From positions 1 to 43,671 of the forward strand of contig JACQXE010000020.1 in the NCBI GenBank assembly GCA_016208915.1: a stretch of 43,671 nucleotides of DNA. Direction: 5' to 3'. The notes below the pieces were generated by a model. That model did not search any database. It was not told where the DNA came from and worked only from the letters and a program-made list of their open reading frames with translations. Shown one piece after another: positions 7,100 through 38,152 of this stretch. Both the position numbers and the translations under genes were made by a program. The first letter of the stretch is position 1, and every line of letters starts with the position of its first letter. The DNA comes from Nitrospirota bacterium. GTDB lineage: Bacteria; Nitrospirota; Thermodesulfovibrionia; Thermodesulfovibrionales; UBA1546.

Positions 7100-8743
7100 A
7101 TGGAAGTCCTTGATGATATAAAGGCGGCAAAGGAAGTGATAAGCGCTCTCCTTAAGGCCAAGAAAAGCTTCAGGATGTATCCTGAGAACAATCCAATGTA
7201 TGCAAAGATAATAGATGATACCTATTTAAAATTTAAAAACTTTTTTGATTACAAGGAAGAGCTAACCTTAAAGCTCAAACAGAATGAGATATATTGTGAT
7301 TTGGAACAGATATATTATAGCACGCAGAAAGAAGACAATCTCGCGCTCTTTTTCTTCAAAGACGGACTCAGGGAAATAACATTCAAAAATGGTTTTGCCA
7401 AGAAAGAACTTGAGGATTTTTTGAAAATACTTACTGTTGATTATGACAGGGAGGTGCTCGATGATGATGTTGTTACCCTGATGTGGGAAAAGGATTTCCA
7501 TAATGTAAAATATGTTGTTGATGAGTCGTTTCTTGTAGAGGATGAGAATTACGAGACAGGAGCAGTACAGGATGTAAAGGGCAAGGCAACAGGCGGTGAT
7601 GATCTGGCACGGGCATATTCTGACGCCTTTGAGGAGCATGGAGTTAAGGAGATATCAATAGTCCCCCTGACAGACAAAGACCTCCATATCCTTGTCAAAG
7701 AGATAGAGAAAGACGGCAATGAAAAGACAAGCAAGATTATCACTATAATCTTTGAGATGTTATATCAGGCGGAAAACAAAAGCGAATATGAGGATACAGT
7801 GCACTTTCTTACGGATGCTATAGATTTTTCGATAAGACATGGGAATCTGGAATCGGTTATAGATATAATGATGAGGACAAAAGAGATTGTTGATTCCCCG
7901 CAGGTTTCAGGCGAGATTAAAAAATACCTTAACCTCGTCTTTTCTTTTGCAGCCTCAGATAGCGTGATAAAGCTCCTCGGCGAGTTTTTTGACAGCGGCG
8001 TTGAGATAGACGATAAGATTTTAAATGAATATATAAAGTTTCTTGACAAGAGCGCTATAAAGCCGTTCATAACAATACTTGGAGATCTCAAAACGATTCC
8101 TGCAAGGAAGCATATTATAAACGCCCTTATAACTCTTGGTAAAAAGGATATACAAAGCGTTGCAAGCGGTTTATATGATTCGAGATGGTATGTGGTCAGG
8201 AACATAATCTATGTGCTCGGTAAAATAGGAGACAAGCAGGCGGTGGATTATCTTCTCAGGACAGTTAATCACAGCGATATAAGAGTCAGAAAAGAGGTCA
8301 TAAAGGCACTCGGCGAACTCGGCACAGCAGGGGTGTTGCAGACGCTCAAGGAATGCCTTGACGATCCTGAGGTGCAGATAAGGACATCTGCTGCAAGGTC
8401 TCTTGGCAATATCCATTCAACAGCAGCCAAGGGCATATTACTTCAGAAATTGTCTGGTAAGAATTTTATAAAAAAAGACTTTAACGAAAAAAAAGAATTT
8501 TACGAGGTGCTTTCTCACTGGAAGGATAACGATGTAGTTGAGTTCATTATGGCGGCTATTAAAAAGAAGTCTTTCTTCAAAAGGGCAATGAATGACGAAA
8601 CAAAGGCATGCGCAATATATGCATTGGGACTGATTGGCAATAAGGATGTGCTTCCCCTGTTGCAAAAAGTGAAGGATTCTAACAATAGAATCATTAGGGA
8701 ATATGCATATACTGCGGTCAAAAGAATAGAATATGGCCAGTAA
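7100..8743 (+). CDS. HEAT-repeat protein
   Basis: A 547-residue cytoplasmic protein. The N-terminal region (about 1-140) is helical and acidic without a recognised domain. The C-terminal half contains HEAT-like helical pairs, clearest in SRWYVVRNIIYVLGKIGD, HSDIRVRKEVIKALGELG and DPEVQIRTSAARSLGNIHS. HEAT repeats form protein-docking solenoids. The last 11 bp overlap the HD-GYP gene, so the two are likely coupled and may act in one cyclic-di-GMP-linked complex (inference). GTG 7082 is an alternative start, disfavoured by the promoter position. Confidence 0.8.
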   Translation: MEVLDDIKAAKEVISALLKAKKSFRMYPENNPMYAKIIDDTYLKFKNFFDYKEELTLKLKQNEIYCDLEQIYYSTQKEDNLALFFFKDGLREITFKNGFAKKELEDFLKILTVDYDREVLDDDVVTLMWEKDFHNVKYVVDESFLVEDENYETGAVQDVKGKATGGDDLARAYSDAFEEHGVKEISIVPLTDKDLHILVKEIEKDGNEKTSKIITIIFEMLYQAENKSEYEDTVHFLTDAIDFSIRHGNLESVIDIMMRTKEIVDSPQVSGEIKKYLNLVFSFAASDSVIKLLGEFFDSGVEIDDKILNEYIKFLDKSAIKPFITILGDLKTIPARKHIINALITLGKKDIQSVASGLYDSRWYVVRNIIYVLGKIGDKQAVDYLLRTVNHSDIRVRKEVIKALGELGTAGVLQTLKECLDDPEVQIRTSAARSLGNIHSTAAKGILLQKLSGKNFIKKDFNEKKEFYEVLSHWKDNDVVEFIMAAIKKKSFFKRAMNDETKACAIYALGLIGNKDVLPLLQKVKDSNNRIIREYAYTAVKRIEYGQ

Positions 8744-10139
8744 GGAAGCGGTATTTTCAGGCGCAAAGGATCTGATTAACCAGCTTTCTGTTGTAATAAG
8801 GACATCGTATATCCACAGTCCGGGGAATATTGCAATTATAACAGCGACAGATAAATTTATTTCCATGATTAATCCGCTGGTCACATCAGAGGGAGAATTA
8901 ACCCTTGAGCTTGGAGGCGAATTTTTCTATCTGAATGAAACAAGGATAAGATATCCGCTTGAGTACCTATCAAATTTCGATTTTCTGAGCAGGGAATTCA
9001 GAAAAAGGGAGTTAGGCAGCATTGTCTTTAAGGGTGTTCCAAAAGGTTTGGATATGCAAGACTTTTTCAAGGCATTTATGGCGTCTGTTTTTTCCCAGAC
9101 ACCATTTGAAACGCTATCAGAAGATATATCTACGATTGATAGCCTTGGTATCGGAAGGCTCAGAAAAGTAAGAGATGAAAACATAGAAGGGAATGCAGAT
9201 ATAAGGAGAGTAGTCAAAAAGGCATATTTTAATGCAGTCTCATTTACAAGAGGGGTTATCAATAGGATAAAGTCAGGGGAAAGGGTAGGTATAAGAAAGG
9301 CAAAGAGGATTGTTGAATCAATGGTTGACATGGTGCTTGAACAAGAGCAGTTGCTCCTCGCTATGACATCCATCAAGGACTATGATGACTATACCTATTA
9401 CCACTCAGTCAATGTGAGCATACTGTCTGTTGCCCTTGGTCAGAGGCTTGGTCTGAGCAAAAAAGCGCTTACAGAACTCGGGCTGGTATCATTGTTTCAT
9501 GATATAGGCAAGATAGAGATACCCCTTGAAATACTCAATAAGCCAACAAATTTTACTAATGAAGAATGGAAACTGGTTAAGAAACATCCTTTTTGGGGTG
9601 TGAGGGCTATACTCAGGCTGCAGGGATTTGATTACATGGCAGTGAGGACTGCTATTTGTGCATTCGAACATCATATGAACTATGATTTCTTGGGATATCC
9701 GAGGCTTCGGTCACCAATAGAACTGGATTTTTATTCAAAGATAATAACCCTTGCTGACCAGTATGATGGCATGACATCATCGAGGGTATATTCAAGAGTC
9801 CCCATGTCGCCTGATACTGCTTTAAGCATCATGATGGAAAGGGCTGGCAGTCAGCTCGATCCTGTTCTTTTTAAATTTTTTATCAATATGGTTGGAGTTT
9901 TCCCGGTCGGCACTCTTGTCATGCTTGATACGAGAGAACTTGGGCTTGTACAGCAGAGTGAGCCTGTGTTTCTGGACAGACCTCGGGTGGTGGTAATTAT
10001 GAACAACAGGGGTGAAAAGATAGAAGGCAAAGTTGTGGATCTTACAGAAAGAGATCCGGACGGCAAATTCCTCAGGACCATAGTTAAGACCATGGATCCC
10101 AATAAGTACAGGATTAACCTTGCAGATTATATGCTATAG
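8733..10139 (+). CDS. HD-GYP domain protein with degenerate GYP motif
   Basis: A 468-residue protein whose central domain (about 205-370) matches HD-GYP phosphodiesterases that hydrolyse cyclic-di-GMP. Metal-binding residues are visible at His224 (YYHSVNVS), His256-Asp257 (FHDIGK), His285 (KKHPFWG) and His313-His314. The signature HHExxDGxGYP is altered to HHMNYDFLGYP: the Glu is Met and the Asp-Gly is Asp-Phe. The enzyme may therefore be inactive or changed, and could act as a binding protein. The N-terminal 200 residues have no recognised sensor domain, and the C-terminal tail resembles a small beta domain. The start overlaps the HEAT-repeat gene by 11 bp. Confidence 0.85.
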   Translation: MASKEAVFSGAKDLINQLSVVIRTSYIHSPGNIAIITATDKFISMINPLVTSEGELTLELGGEFFYLNETRIRYPLEYLSNFDFLSREFRKRELGSIVFKGVPKGLDMQDFFKAFMASVFSQTPFETLSEDISTIDSLGIGRLRKVRDENIEGNADIRRVVKKAYFNAVSFTRGVINRIKSGERVGIRKAKRIVESMVDMVLEQEQLLLAMTSIKDYDDYTYYHSVNVSILSVALGQRLGLSKKALTELGLVSLFHDIGKIEIPLEILNKPTNFTNEEWKLVKKHPFWGVRAILRLQGFDYMAVRTAICAFEHHMNYDFLGYPRLRSPIELDFYSKIITLADQYDGMTSSRVYSRVPMSPDTALSIMMERAGSQLDPVLFKFFINMVGVFPVGTLVMLDTRELGLVQQSEPVFLDRPRVVVIMNNRGEKIEGKVVDLTERDPDGKFLRTIVKTMDPNKYRINLADYML

Positions 10140-10159
10140 TATACAAAGGAGGTGATATT

Positions 10160-10222
10160 ATGAAGATAAGGAAGGTTTCAAAGAAGCTTGCAACGACATG
10201 CAAATGCAAAAGCTCCTGCTAA
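10160..10222 (+). CDS. Micro-gene for a 20-residue basic, Cys-rich peptide
   Basis: ATG at 10160 opens a 20-codon frame ending TAA, giving a lysine/arginine-rich leader (MKIRKVSKKLATT) and a tail CKCKSSC with three cysteines. Upstream, AAAGGAGGTGAT (10145-10156) is a 12-nt complement to the usual 16S rRNA 3' end at ideal spacing, the strongest ribosome binding site in the window. It lies 20 bp after the HD-GYP gene and 52 bp before a cytochrome c gene. The leader-plus-Cys-tail layout resembles a RiPP precursor or a metal-binding micro-peptide, but no maturase is adjacent and I cannot name a family. Confidence 0.6.
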   Translation: MKIRKVSKKLATTCKCKSSC

Positions 10223-10670: not shown

Positions 10671-10680
10671 AAGGTAAAAA

Positions 10681-10709
10681 GGGAAGGCAGTAAGCCTTCC
10701 CTTTTTTTT
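10681..10709 (+). terminator. Rho-independent terminator after cytochrome c
   Basis: GGGAAGGC (10681-10688) pairs with GCCTTCCC (10694-10701) around AGTAA, followed by eight T (10702-10709) and preceded by an A-run. This is a textbook intrinsic terminator and separates the periplasmic cytochrome from the membrane cytochrome gene. Confidence 0.95.
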
Positions 10710-21305: not shown

Positions 21306-21649
21306 ATCATTAGACAACCGAAACAGGAGATAAGTTCCTCAGTGATACCGCCAAAATCAAAGATGACTGCCTTTATCATACGCTTATGATTATAGCACTA
21401 AAGATATTCCTGTATGAGAGGAGGCACCTTAAAATTAGTCTATTAGTCCAAAATAGGCTATCCATAACGAGCAGTTTGTTCCGGTAGAGATTCCTGCATC
21501 ATTCTAACTCTTTGATTTTTCTTATGAATTAGTCTGGCATTAACCTTGCTTAGTGCATATAAAAAGTATGGCAAAAAGGACTATGACATTCATCTATTAT
21601 TTGATAGCATTAAGGTATAACCTTCATGCCGGGGAATGGGGCAGGAGGA
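21306..21649. promoter_or_regulatory. Divergent intergenic region between ECF sigma and sod
   Basis: About 340 bp without a gene. On the minus strand, TATAAT (21389-21394) could be the -10 of the sigma operon, without a good -35. Toward sod, ATGACA and TAGCAT near 21584-21612 form a weak pair, and AAGGT-ATA-ACCTT (21612-21624) is a small dyad near the sod start. No repeat element, RNA gene or further ORF was recognised. Confidence 0.35.
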
Positions 21650-22333
21650 ATGTTTCTCAATAGGAGAGAGTTTTTAACATTTATTAGTATCGCAGGTTTT
21701 TTGTTCGGTTTTATGAAACCGATATCTGCTGAAATAAAAAAGGAGGAAAAGAATATGGCTTACGCAGCAAAGGATTATTCGAAGCTTATCGGGATGGAGG
21801 GACTCAGTGAGACTCTCTTAAAGAATCATTTCACGCTTTATCAGGGATATGTGACGAATACAAACAAGGTGCTTGATACACTGAATCAGATGTTGAAAGA
21901 TGGAAAGACTGCTATCCCTGAATTTGCAGAACTGAAGAGAAGGCTTGGTTGGGAATTTAATGGCATGAGGCTCCATGAGTATAATTTTGAAAACCTCGGA
22001 GGGAAAGGAGGGTTGGACAAGGCAGGAAAACTTGCCAAAAAACTCACAGAGGATTTCGGAAGTTATGAAATGTGGGAGAAGGATTTTAAGGCGACAGGTA
22101 CGATGAGGGGTGTCGGATGGACAGCTCTCTATCATGATCCCATGAATGGAAGGCTTATGAACTTCTGGATCAACGAACATGATGTCTCGCATCCTTCGGG
22201 CTGTGATCTCATCCTCATCATGGATGTCTTTGAGCATGCCTTTATGATTGATTATGGGCTCAAGAGGGCAGACTATATCGAGGCATTCTTTAAGAACATT
22301 GACTGGAAGGCAGTAGAGGCAAGATTAAAATAA
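21650..22333 (+). CDS. Fe/Mn superoxide dismutase with Tat signal and internal start
   Basis: Superoxide dismutase of the iron/manganese family. Numbered from the internal Met at 21755, the metal ligands are His25 (LLKNHFTLYQGY), His74, Asp157 and His161 (MDVFEHAF). The longer form (227 residues) begins MFLNRREFLT, a twin-arginine motif, followed by a hydrophobic stretch, so it should be exported by TatAC. The internal ATG has a much better Shine-Dalgarno (AGGAGG at 21741-21746) and gives a standard 192-residue cytoplasmic enzyme. Both compartments may be served by one gene. An ATG at 21626 exists but has no ribosome binding site. Confidence 0.9.
   Translation: MFLNRREFLTFISIAGFLFGFMKPISAEIKKEEKNMAYAAKDYSKLIGMEGLSETLLKNHFTLYQGYVTNTNKVLDTLNQMLKDGKTAIPEFAELKRRLGWEFNGMRLHEYNFENLGGKGGLDKAGKLAKKLTEDFGSYEMWEKDFKATGTMRGVGWTALYHDPMNGRLMNFWINEHDVSHPSGCDLILIMDVFEHAFMIDYGLKRADYIEAFFKNIDWKAVEARLK
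21741..21757 (+). promoter_or_regulatory. Internal ribosome binding site and start within sod
   Basis: AGGAGG (21741-21746) sits 8 bp before the in-frame ATG (21755-21757) that begins the conserved enzyme domain. Such an optimal site inside a coding region is unlikely to be an accident and decides a second start. It also fits conversion of a former cytoplasmic gene by addition of an upstream signal. Confidence 0.6.
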
Positions 22334-22354
22334 CAACCATGAAAGGAGGACTTT

Positions 22355-22819
22355 ATGGCAGAGAGAGCATCGGAAAGAGAAGAGAAAGTCACAAAGCCCG
22401 TTGAACTATCGCAACGGTTCTTGGAGATCATCAAGGAATGGCAGAGGCTTGAGGATGAAACGATACGATATTCAGAAGAGTTAATGAAAAAGACCAAGAA
22501 CAAACTGATTACTATGACAATGGAGATGATAAAGCATGATTCTCAGAAGCACAAGGCGATGCAACAGATGTTGATTGACAGCGTTACAAAGGAGCCGTTT
22601 GTTCTCAGTCCGGACGACCTTGGCGCATTGGGGAAAAGACTGAACGCGCATCTGGAAGCCGAAGCCAAGTCTGTTGAGTTCGGAGAAGAGGCATTTAAAA
22701 ACAGTGAACTATTCGTGACAAAATATGTGCTCTCATACCTCATCGCAGATGAGCAGAAACACCATGCCTTGCTCAACAAGCTTGAGGAGCTGAAGAGGGC
22801 TACAGTTTTTGTAACGTAA
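22355..22819 (+). CDS. Ferritin-like domain protein
   Basis: A 154-residue, all-helical protein with spaced carboxylates and histidines suited to a di-iron four-helix bundle: WQRLEDETIRYSEELM, MEMIKHDSQKHKAM, HLEAEAKSVEFGEEA and LIADEQKHHALL. It resembles the rubrerythrin/ferritin-like superfamily but has no rubredoxin Cys pairs. It begins 21 bp after sod behind AAAGGAGG, so the two form an operon. A role in peroxide or iron handling next to superoxide dismutase is likely. The substrate is inferred from context. Confidence 0.75.
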   Translation: MAERASEREEKVTKPVELSQRFLEIIKEWQRLEDETIRYSEELMKKTKNKLITMTMEMIKHDSQKHKAMQQMLIDSVTKEPFVLSPDDLGALGKRLNAHLEAEAKSVEFGEEAFKNSELFVTKYVLSYLIADEQKHHALLNKLEELKRATVFVT

Positions 22820-22835
22820 ACCATATTCAGACAAA

Positions 22836-22897
22836 AGGATGATATCATATTATCAAAATCGTTTCTGAGGTGAAAGATCATCCTGTAGGATTTTTCA
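22836..22897 (+). other. Weak stem-loops between ferritin-like gene and pfpI
   Basis: AGGATGAT (22836-22843) can pair with ATCATCCT (22877-22884), and a smaller ATCCT-GT-AGGAT hairpin followed by TTTTT overlaps its right arm. This could be a weak terminator or attenuator. Neither helix is convincing on its own. Confidence 0.25.
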
Positions 22898-22966
22898 AGA
22901 AATAACATTTATGATGCGGAATGAAAAGATAATGCTTACATCTTCACAGGAGAGGTTAAGATATAG

Positions 22967-23479
22967 ATGAAGGCATTGATGATTAGCGCAGACAATTTTG
23001 AGGACACAGAGCTTCTTGTCCCTTATTACCGTTTGAAGGAAGAAGGGATTCAGGTAGATGTCGCATCAATGAAAAAAGGGAAGATAAAGGGGAAGCACGG
23101 TTATGAGGTAGAGGTTGATAAGACGCTCAAGGAAGTTAAACCCGACGACTATGATATTCTCATCCTTCCCGGAGGCAGGGCACCTGAAACAATACGGAAG
23201 GAGAACGAAGCGATAGAGATTGCAAAACATTTTTTTCAGAAGAACAAACCTGTTTCTGCAATATGTCACGGGCCACAGACATTGATAACAGCAGGTGTTT
23301 TAAAAGGGAGACATGCTACCTGCTATAAATCAGTTGCACAGGAGATGAAGGATGCTGGGGCTGTTTACGAGGATAAAGAGGTGGTTGTAGACGGCAATCT
23401 CGTCACATCAAGACAACCCTCTGACTTGCCTGCATTCTTAAGGGAGACGATGAAGATGCTGAAGAGCCTTAAAAAGTAG
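22967..23479 (+). CDS. PfpI/DJ-1 family protein
   Basis: A 170-residue class I glutamine amidotransferase-like protein of the PfpI/YhbO type. The nucleophile elbow is SAICHGPQ (Cys100, His101) and the conserved acid is Glu12 in ADNFEDTEL. Members have been described as proteases, protein or nucleotide deglycases, and stress proteins, so the exact reaction is uncertain. AGGAGAGG lies 11 bp upstream of the ATG. It sits within the oxidative-stress block between ferritin-like and exported proteins. Confidence 0.88.
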   Translation: MKALMISADNFEDTELLVPYYRLKEEGIQVDVASMKKGKIKGKHGYEVEVDKTLKEVKPDDYDILILPGGRAPETIRKENEAIEIAKHFFQKNKPVSAICHGPQTLITAGVLKGRHATCYKSVAQEMKDAGAVYEDKEVVVDGNLVTSRQPSDLPAFLRETMKMLKSLKK

Positions 23480-23508
23480 GGAGAAGAGTTTTCAAGAGAG
23501 GAGGATTC

Positions 23509-23988
23509 ATGAAGAAAGCAGTTAGTTTCGTGCTTATCATCGGTTTTTCTTTAGCGATTCCTTATGCCGTATATTCTCATGAAAAAGGACATGAGATGGG
23601 AAAGACAAAGTTCACAAAACACTTTCATGAAAGCCTTTTCCAGGTTACAGGAAAGGGCGAATTCAGTGTAGAGGTTTTACTGGATGAGAAAGAATATAAG
23701 ATAGGCAAAAATGTCCTTGGCATTGTAATACATGATAAACATGACGAAGATGTGGAAGGTGCAGATATAAATGTTATGGTTAGGGTTGCAGGGGAGAGCG
23801 CTGAGCAACCAGCAGTTGTTGAGGAGAAAGGTGGCGGGCTGTATACCATAGCTAATGTGAATCTCCAAGGGGATGTCCGATGGGAACTGGTGATAAAAGT
23901 TAAAAAAAAGAAGATAGAAGATACGGCAATCTTTCTTTTTCCTGATGATATGAGAAACCGTAAGCCTGCCGGACAATATGAAAAGTAA
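23509..23988 (+). CDS. Exported FixH/YtkA-like protein
   Basis: A 159-residue protein with signal peptide (MKKAVSFVLIIGFSLAIPYAV, cleaved near YS-HE). The mature N-terminus is His-rich (HEKGHEMGKTKFTKHFHE), suggesting metal binding. The remainder is an immunoglobulin-like beta domain (VIHDKHDEDVEGADINVMVRV, GGGLYTIANVNLQGDVRWELVI) close to FixH/YtkA domains that occur with copper or heme-copper oxidase assembly. No oxidase genes are nearby. GAGAGGAGG marks the start. Confidence 0.7.
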   Translation: MKKAVSFVLIIGFSLAIPYAVYSHEKGHEMGKTKFTKHFHESLFQVTGKGEFSVEVLLDEKEYKIGKNVLGIVIHDKHDEDVEGADINVMVRVAGESAEQPAVVEEKGGGLYTIANVNLQGDVRWELVIKVKKKKIEDTAIFLFPDDMRNRKPAGQYEK

Positions 23989-24047
23989 GAAAGTCGGGCA
24001 AGGATGAGCATATTTGAGAACACAGCAGATAGCGTTCGAAGGAAATC

Positions 24048-24494
24048 ATGCCACATGCCGGATTGATGGATGCTGATGCCCTCGGACCTGAAAAGGCTCC
24101 CTTAATGAGGGCAAAACTCCATATTCGTGGAGGCAGGAGAAGACTGCGTCAGGGAAAGATATCAGCAGGGATAGTTACGCTTTATGATGCCCTAAATGCG
24201 GCAATGGAATGGTATATTATCTCACCAGAACGCAAAAGTGAACTTAAGATAAGAAACAATGATGATATGAGAAAAGATAGTGATGTTTTTGATGTGCTAA
24301 TTCGTTCAGGCGTGCTTGATGTAAAATTCGAGTATAAGACATTCGATTCTTTGGTCGAAAGGGCATTGAATCAGGAGATGCCGGATTATGATTATGCAGA
24401 AATTCTAAAAGGCATCGAGAAAATAATGATACAGCTCGGTGTCATGCCCTTTGATGAGAATGAGCTTCCGCCTGAAGATCCAAGGACATTTTAA
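24048..24494 (+). CDS. Conserved cytoplasmic protein of unknown function
   Basis: A 148-residue helical protein. The early part (RAKLHIRGGRRRLRQGKISAGIVTLYDALNAAMEWYI) is basic and resembles helical HEPN-like or small scaffold domains. The C-terminus is acidic (DENELPPEDPRTF). There is no signal peptide and no recognisable catalytic motif. AAGGAAA is a modest ribosome binding site. It follows the FixH-like gene by about 60 bp and precedes the YyaL-type gene. I do not recognise the family. Confidence 0.6.
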   Translation: MPHAGLMDADALGPEKAPLMRAKLHIRGGRRRLRQGKISAGIVTLYDALNAAMEWYIISPERKSELKIRNNDDMRKDSDVFDVLIRSGVLDVKFEYKTFDSLVERALNQEMPDYDYAEILKGIEKIMIQLGVMPFDENELPPEDPRTF

Positions 24495-24532
24495 GTTAGA
24501 ATGTATAAGATGCAGGATATATCTTAATTAAT

Positions 24533-26491
24533 ATGAACAGACTTTCTAATGAAAAATCTCCCTATCTCAGGCATTCTGCAGAGCAGAAGATAGACTGGTA
24601 TCCATGGTCTGAGAAGGCTTTTCAACGGGCTAAAGAGGAGGATAAGCCGGTATTCCTCAGCACTGGAGCTGTGTGGTGTCACTGGTGCCATGTGATGGCA
24701 AAAGAGTGCTTTGAAAATAGCGAGATAGTAGAACTCCTCAATGAAAACTACATATGTATAAAACTTGACAGGGATGAAAGGCCTGATATAGACAGGAGAT
24801 TTCAGCAGGCCGCTGTTGCTATGGGTTCCGGCGGAGGATGGCCTCTCAGCATGTTTTTAACCCCTGATAAAAAACCATTTTTTGGCGGCACATATTTTCC
24901 TCCTGAGGACAGTCAAGGCAGTCCTGGATTCAAAAAAATCCTTAGGACGGTAATGGAGTTTTACAAAACAAAAAGAGGCGATGTTGATCAATACACCCAG
25001 AAACTCACGAATTACCTCAAACCAGATAAGCTGATAAGCGGAGAAATAGGAATATCAATGGTTGACATTGTTATAAATGATATGCTCTCTGAATCTGATG
25101 CTCAGAACGGCGGATTTGGAACAGCTCCGAAATTCCAGATGCCAGGGGCAATGGAGTTTTTGATAAATCACTACTGTATTGCAGAAAAAAAATCTATTAA
25201 AACTGTTATCACAAATACCCTTAATGCAATGGCAAAGGGAGGATTCCATGACCAAATTGGAGAAGGTTTTCACAGGTATTCCACTGATGAGGCATGGATT
25301 ATTCCGCATTTTGAAAAGATGGCGGATGACAATGCATGGCTTTTAAGGAATTACATTGATGCATACAGTGTTTTTGGGGACGCATGTTTCCGAGCGGTTG
25401 CAGAGGGGATAATAAGATTTATAAGAGAGGTCTTATCTGATCCTGAAGGCTGTTTCTATGCGAGCCAGGATGCTGATGTCACGCCTGATGACGAAGGCGG
25501 ATATTTTACGTGGACAGATGAAGAATTCAAAAGCGTGCTTAACAGCGAAGAATATGAGATATTGCCCATGCATCTTTTTCATGAGAGAGGTGCAATGCGC
25601 CATGATAGGTCTAAAAAGGTATTGTACATTGCAATGGATATTCAAATTATTGCTGAGAAGACCGGTAAGGATATTAAAACAGTTTCTGAAATAGTTAATG
25701 CTGGCAAGAATAAGCTATTAAGAAAAAGAAAAACAAGAGAGACGCCTTTTATTGATAAGACATTCTATACGTCAATAAACTGTATGCTGATAACTTCTTA
25801 TCTTAAGGCCTTCAGGGTTATCAGGGATAATGCCTTAAGGGAATTTGCACTCAAGAGCCTCGAAAGGATAGTTGCTATGCATTTTGCAGGCAATGAACTC
25901 CTGCACACATATGGAGTAAAGGCTGTGCTTGATGATTATATCTATTTAACAGAGGCATTTGTTAACGCATATGAGGTTACAAGCGATTCGTTTTATCTTA
26001 ATCAGGCAGACAGACTTATGGAGTTATGCACTAAGAGATTCTGGGATGAAAATGAAGGAGGATTTTTCGATACAGATGAGGAGGTTCTTGGGATAAGACT
26101 TAAGGGCATCGAAGATATTCCGCATCCTTCTGCAAACTCTCTCGGAATTTTATTGTTACTCAAATTATACCATCTGACAGGCAAGGATGAATATCTTCGG
26201 CATTCAGAGAAGGCTCTGAAAATATTCGCATCAAGGGCAAAAGGAATGGGGATACATTCAGGATATTACTTCTGTGCGCTCGATGCGTATTTCCATCAGC
26301 TCAAGCTTACCATTCATTCCGCTCCTGACAGCGAATTGGCTAAGACAGCACTTTCATTATTCAGTCCGTACACGAGCATAGCCTATGGGGATGAGCGGGG
26401 ATATGTGCTTCCATGTGTAAAGACTGAATGTTACGAACCACTAACTACCACTGAAGAGATAAGGACATTTTTAATGGGGAGGCGAGGATAA
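24533..26491 (+). CDS. YyaL/DUF255 thioredoxin-domain protein
   Basis: A 652-residue cytoplasmic protein: an N-terminal thioredoxin-like DUF255 domain with NEKSPYLRHSA and CHWCHVM (Cys49, Cys52), then an (alpha/alpha)6 barrel of the AGE/glycosidase-like fold with GGFGTAPKFQMPG, GGFHDQIGEGFHRYSTDEAW and PHFEKM. This is the YyaL/spermatogenesis-associated protein 20 family. Its activity is unknown, though epimerase-like chemistry and redox roles have been suggested. Full length for the family, with no defects. The adjacent stress genes suggest redox work. Confidence 0.88.
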   Translation: MNRLSNEKSPYLRHSAEQKIDWYPWSEKAFQRAKEEDKPVFLSTGAVWCHWCHVMAKECFENSEIVELLNENYICIKLDRDERPDIDRRFQQAAVAMGSGGGWPLSMFLTPDKKPFFGGTYFPPEDSQGSPGFKKILRTVMEFYKTKRGDVDQYTQKLTNYLKPDKLISGEIGISMVDIVINDMLSESDAQNGGFGTAPKFQMPGAMEFLINHYCIAEKKSIKTVITNTLNAMAKGGFHDQIGEGFHRYSTDEAWIIPHFEKMADDNAWLLRNYIDAYSVFGDACFRAVAEGIIRFIREVLSDPEGCFYASQDADVTPDDEGGYFTWTDEEFKSVLNSEEYEILPMHLFHERGAMRHDRSKKVLYIAMDIQIIAEKTGKDIKTVSEIVNAGKNKLLRKRKTRETPFIDKTFYTSINCMLITSYLKAFRVIRDNALREFALKSLERIVAMHFAGNELLHTYGVKAVLDDYIYLTEAFVNAYEVTSDSFYLNQADRLMELCTKRFWDENEGGFFDTDEEVLGIRLKGIEDIPHPSANSLGILLLLKLYHLTGKDEYLRHSEKALKIFASRAKGMGIHSGYYFCALDAYFHQLKLTIHSAPDSELAKTALSLFSPYTSIAYGDERGYVLPCVKTECYEPLTTTEEIRTFLMGRRG

Positions 26492-26496
26492 TAAAA

Positions 26497-26556
26497 ATGA
26501 AAAAAAACAGGCTTCCGCCGGGACAGATACGGATAGGGTGTGCGATATCAGGTTGA
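26497..26556 (+). pseudogene. Nineteen-codon remnant, possibly of a sulfite-oxidase-like gene
   Basis: The frame MKKNRLPPGQIRIGCAISG-stop begins 6 bp after the DUF255 stop. The RLPPGQ word is typical of the N-terminus of sulfite-oxidase-like molybdopterin proteins, but the conserved continuation is missing. It may be the stump of a deleted gene or an accidental frame. Confidence 0.25.
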
Positions 26557-26644
26557 TCTGTATTGTAAAAACTGGTGACATAAGTCTTAAAAGATGAGAT
26601 AATTATAAAAGTGGGCATGGCAAGATAAAATTTAGGAGGTGTTT

Positions 26645-27277
26645 ATGGATGTTATCCATGTAATAAAAGAAAGACGTTCAATTAATTTCTTTGAAACAGG
26701 GAAAGAACTCCCGAATAATAAGTTAAACGAGTTGCTTGAGATAGCGAATCTTTCACCATCCTCATTCAATCTTCAGCCCTGGAAGGTTATTGTTGTAAAA
26801 GACCCTGAGAGGAAGAATGCCCTGAGAAGATGTGCATTTGACCAGCCGAAGGTAGAGGAGGCATCTGCAGTGTTGATTATGATTGCTGACCCAAACGCTG
26901 TTGAGGAAAACATAGACAGGATGCTCGACAGCTGGCAGGAATTAGGATATATGAAACCAGAGATGAGAGATACATATAAAGGAATGGCACAGAACCTCTA
27001 CGGCTCTCCTGACAGCATGAAGAGAAAGTTTTTTGCGGTAAAAAATACCTCTCTGTTTGCCATGAACCTTATGATTGCGGCAAAGGGGCTTGGGCTTGAA
27101 ACTCACCCTATGGACGGCTTTGATGAAGAATGCATCAAAAAGGAGTTCAAGATACCTTCTGACAATATAATCCCGATGCTTGTTGCAGTCGGATATCTCA
27201 AATCAGGGATAAAGCTTCTGCCGAGGGCATTCAGGAGAAAGGTTGAGGAGTTTGTGAAATTTGAAAAATATCAATAA
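26645..27277 (+). CDS. Nitroreductase-family flavoprotein
   Basis: A 210-residue FMN-dependent oxidoreductase. The N-terminal VIKERRSINFFETG binds FMN phosphate in this family, followed by LSPSSFNLQPWKVIVV and a C-terminal LVAVGYLK. These enzymes reduce nitro compounds, quinones or flavin. The natural substrate cannot be assigned. ATG 26645 follows AGGAGG at correct spacing. The in-frame GTG 26639 lies inside that site. Structured repeat copy 2 starts 11 bp after the stop, between this gene and a ferritin-like gene. Confidence 0.88.
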   Translation: MDVIHVIKERRSINFFETGKELPNNKLNELLEIANLSPSSFNLQPWKVIVVKDPERKNALRRCAFDQPKVEEASAVLIMIADPNAVEENIDRMLDSWQELGYMKPEMRDTYKGMAQNLYGSPDSMKRKFFAVKNTSLFAMNLMIAAKGLGLETHPMDGFDEECIKKEFKIPSDNIIPMLVAVGYLKSGIKLLPRAFRRKVEEFVKFEKYQ

Positions 27278-27288
27278 TTAATGTTGAG

Positions 27289-27418
27289 AAGGCAGGATAT
27301 GATATTTAAGCGGATTTTTTTTGCTGATATTCCGACAGTATGCATAAAAATAATCGAGAGGCAAAAACCTCGGAGGTCGTAAGGCCGAGAATGATGCGAA
27401 AATATTATATCCTGCCTT
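27289..27418 (+). repeat. Structured intergenic element, copy 2
   Basis: AAGGCAGGATATGATATTT (27289-27307) pairs with AAATATTATATCCTGCCTT (27400-27418) over 19 positions with a single G-U wobble on the plus strand. The core is AGCGG, TTTTTTTTGCTGATATTCC, GAGG-CAAAAA-CCTC, GGTC-GTAA-GGCC and CGAGAATGATGCGAA. It lies between two co-directional genes, so it is probably transcribed with them. Confidence 0.85.
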
Positions 27419-27448
27419 AATTAGATATAACAGAAGGGAGAGTTTAGA

Positions 27449-27991
27449 ATGGTCACAGGCAAGGAAGATCTGATGCAGTCGCTGATTGAGGCGTATCTCA
27501 TGGAGAAGGGGACGATGGAGTTTTATTCCCGTGCCGCTGATAAGGTGATAGACCCTGAGGTTAAAAAAACATTCAGAAGCCTTTCTTCATGGGAAGAAAG
27601 GCACATGGATTTTATCAGGTTTCTATATCAGTCTGTTATGGACGATAGGGATATCATAGGATTCGAGCAGTTCAAGGATAAAACTGATACTCTTTTCACA
27701 GAGGCAGGGATTCCTGTAAAGGAACTTGAGGGCAGAATTGAGCAGAAGGATTTTTCTAATGACATGGAAGCAATAACGCTTGCTCTCGATATAGAGGGGG
27801 GGGCATACAGGCTTTACAGAGGTCTCTCGCAAAGCGCTGGGGATAGCAATGCCAGGGTTGTATTTCAGGAAATGATGGAATACGAGGCAAAGCATATAGA
27901 TTACCTTCAGAAGATTAGCGTTAATTACCTTAAAAATGTGAGTGTTGAGTATCTTAAAAAGATGAGGGAGAGACTTACCGACAATTCATGA
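27449..27991 (+). CDS. Rubrerythrin-like ferritin-family protein
   Basis: A 180-residue helical protein with two halves of a di-iron bundle: LMEKGTMEFYSRAADKV with SSWEERHMDFIRF, and ALDIEGGAYRLYRGL with MMEYEAKHIDYL. The ExxRH and EAKH motifs supply metal ligands. No rubredoxin domain is present, so it matches the short rubrerythrin-like or YciF-type proteins of anaerobes. GGGAGAG precedes the ATG. A related gene follows 13 bp downstream, probably an ancient duplication. Predicted role is peroxide or iron detoxification. Confidence 0.82.
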   Translation: MVTGKEDLMQSLIEAYLMEKGTMEFYSRAADKVIDPEVKKTFRSLSSWEERHMDFIRFLYQSVMDDRDIIGFEQFKDKTDTLFTEAGIPVKELEGRIEQKDFSNDMEAITLALDIEGGAYRLYRGLSQSAGDSNARVVFQEMMEYEAKHIDYLQKISVNYLKNVSVEYLKKMRERLTDNS

Positions 27992-28004
27992 ATGGAGGTA
28001 TATA

Positions 28005-28505
28005 ATGAATGCAATTGATATAGCAATAAAGATGGAAACAGATGCAATAAATTTTTACAAGACAGCATCCGAAAAGGTAAATCATCTGGTCGGCAAAAAG
28101 ATGTTCCTGACAATAGCAGAGGACGAGAAAAGGCATCTTGATATGCTTACACAGATATTCAAAGGGCTTGATCTGACAATTCTTGATGTCAGTCCGATGA
28201 ACAATATTAAGACAGTCTTTGAGGAAATGAAGGATGAGATGATGGAAAGGGTTGAGGCAACACAAGATGAACTTGAGGCATTCAGGATCGCCATGGACAT
28301 GGAGAAGAAAGGAATCACATTTTACAAGAAAGAGGCATTAGAAGCAGGGACAAACAAGGAGAAAGCCCTTTTTGAAAGGCTTGTGCATGAGGAAGAACAG
28401 CATTACAATATATTTGCAAATACATATTTTTTTCTTTCTGATACTGGAAACTGGTTTATGGGAGAGGAACATACTATTTTTGACGGCGGCACCCCATGGG
28501 CGTAA
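28005..28505 (+). CDS. Second rubrerythrin-like ferritin-family protein
   Basis: A 166-residue helical di-iron protein: MNAIDIAIKMETDAINFYKTA with EDEKRHLDMLTQ, and AMDMEKKGITFYKKEALEA with VHEEEQHYNIF. The carboxylate/His pattern is that of the rubrerythrin domain, again without a rubredoxin module. The tail (NWFMGEEHTIFDGGTPWA) is found in relatives of the ferritin-like type in anaerobic bacteria. It follows the previous ferritin-like gene by 13 bp with TGGAGG as ribosome binding site, so the two are one operon. Confidence 0.84.
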   Translation: MNAIDIAIKMETDAINFYKTASEKVNHLVGKKMFLTIAEDEKRHLDMLTQIFKGLDLTILDVSPMNNIKTVFEEMKDEMMERVEATQDELEAFRIAMDMEKKGITFYKKEALEAGTNKEKALFERLVHEEEQHYNIFANTYFFLSDTGNWFMGEEHTIFDGGTPWA

Positions 28506-34841: not shown

Positions 34842-36277
34842 GATGCGCATTAGTTATCCCTTCCTGGGCGCCTGAAGATATATTTTCCTCAAAAACAGCA
34901 AGCTCGCAGATAAACTACTGGCAGCCGCTCGGCACTCTCTATGTTGCTGCTGTGCTTCAGCATGCAGGGCATAATGTCAGGTTTTTAAATGGAGCGTTTA
35001 CGACACATGAAGAATTACTCACAGAGATTAAAAGATTCAGCCCTGAGTTTATCGGAATTTACTCAACGACATTTGGCTGGGATAAGGCAAAGAAAACAGC
35101 AGGTGATCTTAGAAAAATATTCGGAAAGCATGTTTTTATATGCGCAGGCGGGCCGTATCCGATTGCAGTGCAGGAGCATTGTCTGGAAGACGCTGGAAAA
35201 GATATTGATGCCATAGTTACAGGCGAGGGCGAGTTCACGGCTATCGAAATTATTGAAAGGATTCAGGCAGGAAAAAGCCTCGAAGGAGTGCTTGGTGTTA
35301 TTTTCAGAGACGGCGAACGTATTATAAAAAATCCTCCACGTCCGTTGATAAGTGATCTTGATTCATTGCCTTTCCCTGCGAGAGAATTTCTGGGAGATGC
35401 AAATCTATACATTCCTCCTCCGGCTACATACAAAAGGAAGCCTGTTGCTGTTCTGATAACATCGAGGGGCTGTAACAGGAGATGTATATATTGTTTCCAG
35501 ATAGATAAAGAGAGAAAAACAGGTATAAGATACCGTAGCGTTAAGAATGTATTGAAGGAGATAGAACACTGTATAAAACAGGGGTACAAAGAGATAAAGT
35601 TTATAGACGATACACTTGCTGCTGATTATGACAGGGCTATGCAGATAGCCGGGGAGATAAAGTCAAGAAGGCTTGATTTCACATGGTTTGCATCTGCCTG
35701 CGTTAATCAGGTAGATAAGCCTTTGCTTAAGGCATTTAAGGATGCAGGTTGTTGGGCCATACTATTTGGCGCTGAGAGCGGTGTGCAGAAGAACCTCAAC
35801 ACAATAAGAAAAGGGATAACGCTTGAGCAAACGAGAAATGCTGTTCGATGGGCAAAAGAAGTTGGGCTTCAGGTGAGCACACCGTTTCTGTTCGGTATCC
35901 CGGGAGAGACATTTGAAGATGGGCTTAAGACAATAGAGTTCGCAATAGAGATTAATCCTGACATAGCTAATTTTCATGCCATAACGCCGTTCCCTGGCAC
36001 ATACCTGTATGACAATCTTGAAAAATATGGTGTAATCTCTACCAAGCTGACTGATTTTACGTATCAAGGGGCAGCGTTTATTCCTTATACAATGACAAGG
36101 GATGAAATCTTAAAACTGCGCCAGATAGCATTCAAAAAATTTTACTCTCGGCCTTCTTTTATCATCAGAAAACTTTTTGAACTGAGAAGCCTGCATGACC
36201 TCAGAATAGCTGCCAGGAGCGCAAAAAGCCTGTTCTGGTTATGGGTAAAGAGCAAGATATTCACTTACTCTTCTTAG
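34838..36277 (+). CDS. B12-binding-domain radical SAM protein
   Basis: A 479-residue enzyme with an N-terminal cobalamin-binding-like domain (about 1-140: QPLGTLYVAAVLQHAGHNVRF, ICAGGPYP, TGEGE) and a radical SAM domain with CNRRCIYC (Cys212, Cys216, Cys219) and ESGVQKNLNTIRKG. This class often methylates or rearranges lipids, cofactors or sugars. The cobalamin ligand His motif is not obvious, so cobalamin use is not certain. Translationally coupled to the upstream flavoprotein (ATGA), so the two probably act on one glycolipid or lipid substrate. It ends convergently, overlapping the response-regulator stop. Confidence 0.87.
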   Translation: MRCALVIPSWAPEDIFSSKTASSQINYWQPLGTLYVAAVLQHAGHNVRFLNGAFTTHEELLTEIKRFSPEFIGIYSTTFGWDKAKKTAGDLRKIFGKHVFICAGGPYPIAVQEHCLEDAGKDIDAIVTGEGEFTAIEIIERIQAGKSLEGVLGVIFRDGERIIKNPPRPLISDLDSLPFPAREFLGDANLYIPPPATYKRKPVAVLITSRGCNRRCIYCFQIDKERKTGIRYRSVKNVLKEIEHCIKQGYKEIKFIDDTLAADYDRAMQIAGEIKSRRLDFTWFASACVNQVDKPLLKAFKDAGCWAILFGAESGVQKNLNTIRKGITLEQTRNAVRWAKEVGLQVSTPFLFGIPGETFEDGLKTIEFAIEINPDIANFHAITPFPGTYLYDNLEKYGVISTKLTDFTYQGAAFIPYTMTRDEILKLRQIAFKKFYSRPSFIIRKLFELRSLHDLRIAARSAKSLFWLWVKSKIFTYSS

Positions 36278-37023
36278 GTATCTATTTTAATGATAGTGTC
36301 TTCCTGGCTTTCTATTATATCTCCGGCCATGATGTCCTCTATATATTTTTTCAAGATCTCGGCTTCCCTATCTGCTAGCTCCTTAAATTCAATTGCCATT
36401 CCCGGAGAAACCTTTAATATATCTCCCAGAAGTCCTTTTATATAAATTACAGTGCCTTGTAATTTTATGGATTTGCCATCTTTTAGCGGTAAAACTATTT
36501 CGACTGTCGAGCCTACAGGGAATGGGTCCTTTTTCCTTAGATAGATGCCTCTTTCAGAAAGGCTTTCTGCATAAAGATTAATCTGTTTTTCATCGTAGAT
36601 TATGGCTACCTTGGCATTGAATGGAACCCTTAAATATTTTCTCTTCTTTCCTGTACCTGAGAAAAGGCACTCTTGCAGCGCGTCATGCAGCTTATCAATC
36701 TTTATAGGCTTTGTCAGATATTCTGCACATCCAAAACTCTTGCATTTTTCCATCATTTCCGTGCTTAAATCACCGGATACCATAACGACCGGGATATTCT
36801 GAATTTCTTTATCCTCTTTTATATGTCTCAAGACTGCTAAGCCGTCAAGTGTAGGCATCCTTATATCGAGCAGTATGAGATCAGGTTCAATGAGCTTAAG
36901 AAGTTTTAACACCTCCAAGCCGTTTTCAGCAGGTATTACAGTAAAGCCCATTCTTTTTAAGAGAATCCCTATATACATTAAAAATGTCTGGCTGTCATCA
37001 GCTATGAGTATTTTTTTTCTCAA
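36274..37023 (-). CDS. Response regulator with PilZ domain
   Basis: A 249-residue two-domain regulator. The CheY-like receiver (about 4-118) has Asp9-Asp10, phosphorylation site Asp53 (LLDIRMP) and Lys105 (LTKP). The C-terminal part (about 125-235) is a PilZ domain starting KRKYLRVPF, where the Arg residues bind cyclic-di-GMP in the family. The canonical RxxxR reads RKYLR, and the D/NxSxxG box is ESLSERG, somewhat altered. No histidine kinase is next to it. It links phosphorylation to cyclic-di-GMP, as does the HD-GYP protein at 8733. Its stop overlaps the radical SAM stop by 4 bp. Confidence 0.85.
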   Translation of the reverse strand: MRKKILIADDSQTFLMYIGILLKRMGFTVIPAENGLEVLKLLKLIEPDLILLDIRMPTLDGLAVLRHIKEDKEIQNIPVVMVSGDLSTEMMEKCKSFGCAEYLTKPIKIDKLHDALQECLFSGTGKKRKYLRVPFNAKVAIIYDEKQINLYAESLSERGIYLRKKDPFPVGSTVEIVLPLKDGKSIKLQGTVIYIKGLLGDILKVSPGMAIEFKELADREAEILKKYIEDIMAGDIIESQEDTIIKIDT

Positions 37024-37069: not shown

Positions 37070-38152
37070 TTAAAGCTGTATGTATTCTTTGTAAAGATTA
37101 GGAAATAGTCTTACATTAAATAATATATTAGTCATAAAATAACATTCATGTGTACAAAAGCATTTTTTATCCTGTATAAAATCCTTAATCTCTTGGGCTT
37201 TTTTTGAACGTATTATCCTGCTGATATCATACCCGTGATCTCTTAGATTGCCGAGGCTTTTAGTAAGGAGCTCGCATGGATATACATCGCCTTTTTCCGT
37301 AAGCACAAGATTAAGTCTTCCTGCATAGCAGGGTATAATGCGTTTTTGTTCAAGCATGGTCTGATATATGAGACGGCGCTGTAATATATCCTGTGCAGCC
37401 TTAAGACGGGCGCCCTTGAAGCGATAGATATTTGATGCCCTGGTTTTCAGGTTTTTTTCGAGTCTTTCTATTGCATGAAAATATTTTTTGTGGTCAATTT
37501 TTTTGTATTTTTCATCTGAAAGATTTCCACGTATCAGTGAAATTGTGTGTGTCTTTATATGTCGAAGATTGTTTACAAAATCTATTATCCTGTCCATATC
37601 ATCCTGATTTTCAGAGCAGAAGACCGTATTTATCCCAAGTTCAAAATTGGGGTATCTTTCAAGCAGTTCTCCGAGCATATAATGTGTCTGCATGGTTTTG
37701 CTGAAACTGTCTGGTGTGTTGCGCAGGAAGTCGTGCTTCTCATTCAGACCATCGATAGAAAGCTTCACTGCAATTATACTTTTTGTACAGTGCCTAAGTA
37801 TTTCCTCAGTCATTTTTGCGATTAGTTCTGGCAAAAGACCATTCGTAGGATAAAGCATAATTGCCGGCCTGTTATTTTTGTAAAAAACCCTGCTTATCTC
37901 AACGAGGTCTTCTCTTAAATAGATTTCACCGCCTGAAAAGGCAAGCCATAGGAGATTTCTCATCGACCCAGAAATCTTACTGATCTCATCAAGTGATAGT
38001 TCTTCTGAGGGATTTTCTACGTTACCGGTACTCCTGAGATAAAAGCAAAAAGGGCATCTCGAGTTGCATCTCTGTGTTAGGAAAAAAGTGAGATGTATGG
38101 GCTTGTTTTTATTCAGGATAGAGCCTATGTGACGGAAGGGTGAGTACATCAT
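37070..38152 (-). CDS. Radical SAM/SPASM-domain protein
   Basis: A 360-residue radical SAM enzyme with CNSRCPFC (Cys29, Cys33, Cys36), FSGGE in the SAM-binding strand, and a C-terminal Cys-rich region (CYAGRLN, VYPCELL, KKCFCTHEC) typical of a SPASM auxiliary cluster. SPASM enzymes modify peptides, sugars or alcohols. The start overlaps the GT2 stop (ATGA), so it is coupled to a glycosyltransferase and more likely acts on a glycan or lipid. A maturase role for the micro-gene at 10160 is possible but only speculative. Confidence 0.85.
   Translation of the reverse strand: MMYSPFRHIGSILNKNKPIHLTFFLTQRCNSRCPFCFYLRSTGNVENPSEELSLDEISKISGSMRNLLWLAFSGGEIYLREDLVEISRVFYKNNRPAIMLYPTNGLLPELIAKMTEEILRHCTKSIIAVKLSIDGLNEKHDFLRNTPDSFSKTMQTHYMLGELLERYPNFELGINTVFCSENQDDMDRIIDFVNNLRHIKTHTISLIRGNLSDEKYKKIDHKKYFHAIERLEKNLKTRASNIYRFKGARLKAAQDILQRRLIYQTMLEQKRIIPCYAGRLNLVLTEKGDVYPCELLTKSLGNLRDHGYDISRIIRSKKAQEIKDFIQDKKCFCTHECYFMTNILFNVRLFPNLYKEYIQL

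Follow-up and report, generated by a model that had tools for sequence, protein, structure and literature searches.

The PqqA/PqqD/PqqE and mycofactocin MftA systems join a very short conserved precursor to a RiPP recognition element (RRE) and a radical SAM enzyme for a housekeeping use, and PqqA is similar in size to the 20-residue peptide analysed here. These systems serve as a comparison (PMC8326336, PMC7470986), and leader peptides are known to dock onto RREs as a beta strand (PMC7470986; for CteB, PMC8326336). In the SCIFF ranthipeptides of Clostridia, a small Cys-rich precursor of about 45 residues with six Cys meets the RRE-fused radical SAM/SPASM maturase CteB (TIGR03974), and SCIFF peptides are spread so widely through a single large anaerobe group that an antimicrobial role seems unlikely (PMC8326336). 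The sporulation killing factor SkfA, which carries one sactionine bond and relies on the single RRE-bearing radical SAM enzyme SkfB, is secreted by Bacillus (PMC8326336). In the SuiB/SuiA (streptide) system, SuiB forms a Lys-Trp carbon-carbon bond (PMC5491770).

Here we describe a 20-codon gene of Thermodesulfovibrionales (Nitrospirota) which most likely encodes the starting peptide of a radical SAM RiPP of housekeeping type, so far undescribed and made by most of these anaerobes. As in SCIFF, a small Cys-rich peptide is paired with a radical SAM/SPASM-type enzyme bearing a predicted RRE, and the pair is widespread in one large group of anaerobes. However, the peptide has only 20 residues and three Cys, the two genes are often unlinked, relatives carry a leader hairpin, and the enzyme falls below the cut-off of TIGR03974, a family missing from its top 25 NCBIfam matches. 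The single radical SAM enzyme with an RRE recalls SkfB; unlike SkfA, the peptide is conserved across the phylum, and no recurrent exporter, transporter or immunity gene was seen near the peptide or enzyme loci. The structural match to SuiB runs along the full enzyme including the RRE, but the peptide, unlike SuiA, contains no Trp. With PqqA and MftA it shares a very short conserved precursor, an RRE and a radical SAM enzyme, whereas a Cys/Lys/Ser tail replaces their Glu/Tyr or Val-Tyr core and no companion pqq or mft genes were recognised nearby. By analogy, the peptide would work like SCIFF/CteB or SkfA/SkfB; it is not a SCIFF member.

The peptide gene lies in the window, the whole 43,671-nt stretch of DNA analysed, among the following features:

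8733..10139, + strand: HD-GYP-like gene (Pfam HD_5), ending 20 nt before the peptide start
10145..10156, + strand: Shine-Dalgarno sequence AAAGGAGGTGAT, 3 nt 5' of the ATG
10160..10222, + strand: 20-codon gene MKIRKVSKKLATTCKCKSSC plus stop, with putative leader residues 1-12 and putative core T13-C20
10275..10670, + strand: small c-type cytochrome gene (CNECH), downstream neighbour of the peptide gene
10676..10706, + strand: terminator-like hairpin 3' of the cytochrome gene

The ATG begins at 10160, the 20 codons end at 10219, and the TAA occupies 10220-10222; a single copy of the gene was found in the window's genome. The earlier note had proposed a ribosome site complementary over 12 nt to the 16S 3' end. 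A search of the window's own assembly did not find its 16S 3' end; since the 16S gene of the same-order relative G026 ends in GGATCACCTCCTTTCTAA, the 12-nt complementarity holds. Computed with this 16S tail of G026 rather than the host's own, the pairing at the micro-gene reaches -17.8 kcal/mol, the second strongest among 43 window start sites (median -6.2 kcal/mol), and the strongest belongs to the adjoining cytochrome gene. The 12-mer occurs once across the 2.51-Mb assembly. Furthermore, 60 relatives with an enzyme-linked peptide gave a median of -15.8 kcal/mol; strong ribosome sites are a property of the whole peptide family. The strong start that the earlier note had seen on a real micro-gene is thus upheld.

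A search of all 176 Thermodesulfovibrionales genomes found the peptide in 131, belonging to 13 families. A profile built from 50 members also matched in other Nitrospirota classes, and two Syntrophaceae records, fetched as enzyme loci, have the peptide beside the enzyme. The codons are conserved in relatives, the check that the earlier note had proposed: averaged over 99 distinct 60-nt frames, counting only those with a stop directly after C20, synonymous differences (pS 0.83) far exceed amino-acid-changing ones (pN 0.19), although picking the copies by protein similarity lowers pN. Within the window's family the values are 0.69 and 0.13. The peptide is under purifying selection, and near-saturated synonymous sites in an otherwise constant peptide are best explained by translation. 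Given this codon conservation in 99 distinct copies, the frame lies far beyond chance and, judged by its codons, the 20-codon ORF is a real gene. Across these copies C14, K15, C16, S19 and C20 are invariant, I3 is changed in one, position 10 is free, and the Lys-rich half is conserved as well; one further match, L085, ends KSFCYW. Pfam-A and NCBIfam yielded no family for the 50 members at E up to 1; very short queries score low, and the length of the peptide puts it out of reach of these curated libraries. A literature search with the tail sequence gave no relevant paper, and one joining radical SAM, RiPP and Nitrospirota gave a single match, on basin metagenomes. Diverged second copies of the peptide occur at L257 (MTIKKVTKKKGLTCKCHKSC, G004:C34:53068-53127) and L251 (MKIKRVIKKKALTCKCYSSC, G296:C1:25696-25755), neither with an enzyme gene within the fetched flanks.

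Gene clustering around 41 peptide loci revealed one dominant neighbour. In 24 of them the same strand encodes, immediately upstream and usually 25-130 nt away, a radical SAM protein (Pfam PF04055) of about 380 residues with an invariant CX3CX2C site formed by C95, C99 and C102. Against NCBIfam it reached no family cut-off; with no named family matched, its chemistry may be new. When loci were fetched by the enzyme alone, the peptide not being used, 80 named loci were obtained, mostly from Nitrospirae and Thermodesulfovibrionales MAGs with a few Nitrospiria and two Syntrophaceae, and the peptide lay downstream of the enzyme in 60 of them, in 59 cases within about 240 nt. Two separate searches of the 176 genomes found both genes in 115, the peptide only in 16, the enzyme only in 2 and neither in 43; restricting the set to a completeness of 90% or more and a contamination of 5% or less left 91, 4, 1 and 30. 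The Fisher p-values for co-occurrence, 4e-25 and 2e-23, assume independence and are inflated by the relatedness of the genomes. Nevertheless, relatedness alone explains the pattern poorly, because joint absences are scattered over several families; the association also extends to other Nitrospirota classes and to Syntrophaceae. Roughly three in four sequenced species of this major anaerobic order carry the pair, apparently an unannotated microprotein with its maturase.

The peptide is kept without a full enzyme in a few near-complete genomes, namely G001, G025, G128 and G156, and enzyme fragments are held by G095 and G144. At the G156 locus (L249, G156:C26), a single contig holds two C-terminal remnants of the enzyme, one of them ending at the contig edge, and behind each remnant stand an intact leader and a peptide gene. 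The cases of G001, G025 and G128, together with the invariant Cys and the Lys-rich sequence, would suit an unmodified thiol or metal-binding micropeptide, metallothionein-like in its CxCxxxC, for which the radical SAM gene would be a frequent neighbour and a companion in the same physiology but would not encode its enzyme. We consider this unlikely, given the near-perfect co-occurrence with one RRE-bearing radical SAM family even where the genes are unlinked, and a metal site needs neither invariant K15 and S19 nor an RRE enzyme. The peptide and enzyme genes are unlinked in the window's own family. In the window's genome the sole intact enzyme (G000:C15:57697-58824), 58% identical to the query, is encoded on a different contig, where a UbiB-like gene and a solute-binding-protein gene flank it and no peptide adjoins, so the system is split there. 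The window itself holds a radical SAM/SPASM gene at 37070-38152 on the minus strand, flanked by a response-regulator gene and a glycosyltransferase-like gene and only distantly related to the peptide's enzyme. Its match to the maturase query is limited to E 5e-10 over residues 87-261, and it was rejected as the maturase because the 58%-identical orthologue is present on contig 15.

The predicted structure of the enzyme (mean pLDDT 83) is closest, among solved structures, to SkfB (Z 25.6, 19% identity), followed by SuiB (Z 25.0), in both cases over nearly the whole length and for SuiB with the RRE included. Residues 1-75 folded alone (pLDDT 90) gave a structural alignment whose best 13 rows are RRE-bearing RiPP proteins, the best matches being TbiB1 with leader, TigE, lasso B1 with leader, NisB, MccB, PqqD and ThcOx; those to SuiB and CteB rank lower. 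The Z scores of these RRE matches, 4 to 8, are modest, and unrelated winged-helix domains (NO66) reach about 5. By prediction, the enzyme thus combines a radical SAM fold with an N-terminal RRE. The basic N-terminal half of the peptide, with its conserved I3, K5 and V6, would fit an RRE-bound leader, and the nearly invariant C-terminal T-C-K-C-K-x-S-C would fit a RiPP core.

Codon-level selection, linkage to and co-occurrence with the enzyme gene, an intact enzyme in the window's own genome and the predicted SkfB/SuiB and RRE folds together make it most likely that the radical SAM enzyme acts on a RiPP-type precursor encoded by the micro-gene. Counting against this reading are the enzyme-less genomes named above, the unlinked genes in the window's family, the modest RRE scores and the inflated p-values. 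The suggestion that the Cys tail suits a radical-SAM-modified RiPP is supported by its position directly 3' of the RRE-bearing radical SAM gene in relatives and by the order-wide co-occurrence. Co-occurrence and the RRE would be explained equally well if the peptide were a regulator, chaperone or small subunit of the enzyme and the real substrate differed, and 20 residues is short for a precursor. This is decidedly improbable in our judgement, as precursors of similar size exist, for example PqqA, and the invariant part of the peptide is its C-terminal Cys/Ser tail, as a modified core would be.

Taking the peptide as a precursor, we infer its binding to the enzyme, its modification, the type of bond and the use of the product in the following putative model. 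The ORF would be a complete 20-residue precursor, supplied as a stoichiometric substrate by its strong translation initiation. Its basic N-terminal half, KIRKVSKK, would be the recognition leader and dock, as a beta strand, onto the N-terminal RRE of the radical SAM/SPASM-type maturase, which in the window's genome would be provided by the gene on contig 15. The maturase would then modify the tail T-C-K-C-K-x-S-C-COOH, most likely introducing at least one thioether bridge from C14, C16 or C20 to a neighbouring residue. From the sequence of the tail, a thioether product appears the most likely chemistry, albeit at slightly under even chances. As a 20-residue substrate can be synthesised, the reaction is directly testable.

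The gene neighbourhood bears on a further proposal of the earlier note, which had correctly placed the peptide between an HD-GYP gene and a cytochrome c gene with a terminator and had taken this to suggest that the peptide is linked with cyclic-di-GMP or electron transport. The scanned region contains two terminator-like sites against 1.8 expected in shuffles. In the window's family, where five loci were examined, the HD-GYP gene stands before the peptide every time, and some of these loci have the cytochrome gene after the peptide. In the rest of the order, however, no such neighbour was seen, and the peptide follows the radical SAM gene or has housekeeping genes nearby, as where it precedes a TPR-ispE-prs run. 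We therefore regard a role in cyclic-di-GMP signalling or with the adjoining cytochrome as very improbable: the real, strongly initiated RiPP-type micro-gene of the earlier interpretation stands, and the functional tie drawn from its neighbours is left unsupported. In other families, genes near the enzyme-peptide pair, named by sequence resemblance, include 2-oxoacid:ferredoxin oxidoreductase, TPR-ispE-prs, superoxide dismutase, ferritin-like, nitroreductase and response-regulator genes. The window, too, has genes of the final four types, at 21626-28505 and 36274-37023, 11-27 kb downstream of the peptide; judged by gene content, they are perhaps remains of a shared neighbourhood, or shared synteny only. 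No recurrent peptidase was seen in the 6-kb flanks of the 80 enzyme loci, and one could be encoded elsewhere or be absent. Given the wide presence, the invariant core and the lack of a recurrent transporter or peptidase nearby, the data favour a housekeeping role, whether as a cofactor, a metal/redox peptide or a signal peptide, over an antimicrobial one; the spread and invariance of the peptide suggest that this role is basic.

In much of the order, a 6-bp hairpin with an A-N-G-A-A pentaloop lies upstream of the peptide. Behind it comes another, shorter hairpin, with the Shine-Dalgarno sequence in its 3' arm. Such tandem hairpins, captured in model R1, stand about 60 nt upstream of the peptide start at L164, L171, L187, L196, L206 and other loci. 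Five of the six pairs in the first helix show changes on both sides, with a covariation score of 0.416 against 0.201 +/- 0.015 in shuffles and 0.07-0.21 when the partners were slid; the second helix is less well supported. The covariance model of the leader matched 75 places at E below 1e-5 in the 176 genomes, 73 of which, by coordinate comparison, lie directly upstream of the peptide, including peptides away from the enzyme gene, although many of the model's training sequences fall among these places and match by construction. The window's genome gave no match to the model, nor did almost all of its family, and an Rfam scan of the window and eight related loci revealed no known RNA family at the leader. 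The covarying hairpins are possibly a new cis-regulatory RNA, which may restrain production of the peptide or protect its mRNA.

A structured leader in relatives, a short frame, clustered Cys codons and a strong ribosome site would also be expected of a cysteine-sensing attenuator, in which translation matters and the product does not. Such a leader peptide is exceedingly improbable here: the Lys-rich half is conserved too, the downstream genes vary among families with no fixed regulated gene, the window has no terminator-like site between the peptide and the cytochrome gene, and the conserved RNA structure is 5' of the peptide, not 3'. Returning to the precursor reading, we tentatively propose its fullest form, which is possible but doubtful as a whole: a hitherto undescribed, near-universal cofactor or metal/redox peptide of anaerobic Nitrospirota, derived from the 20-residue precursor, whose T-C-K-C-K-x-S-C terminus would receive its own bond chemistry from one radical SAM enzyme, and whose synthesis would be set in most of the order by the RNA hairpin over the ribosome site. 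Of the remaining leader matches, that in G137 is interrupted by a contig break inside the leader. The copy in G133 (L245, G133:C10:15283-15346, E 7.5e-8) stands without a family peptide; a 44-codon ORF comes next, ahead of a multihaem cytochrome gene.
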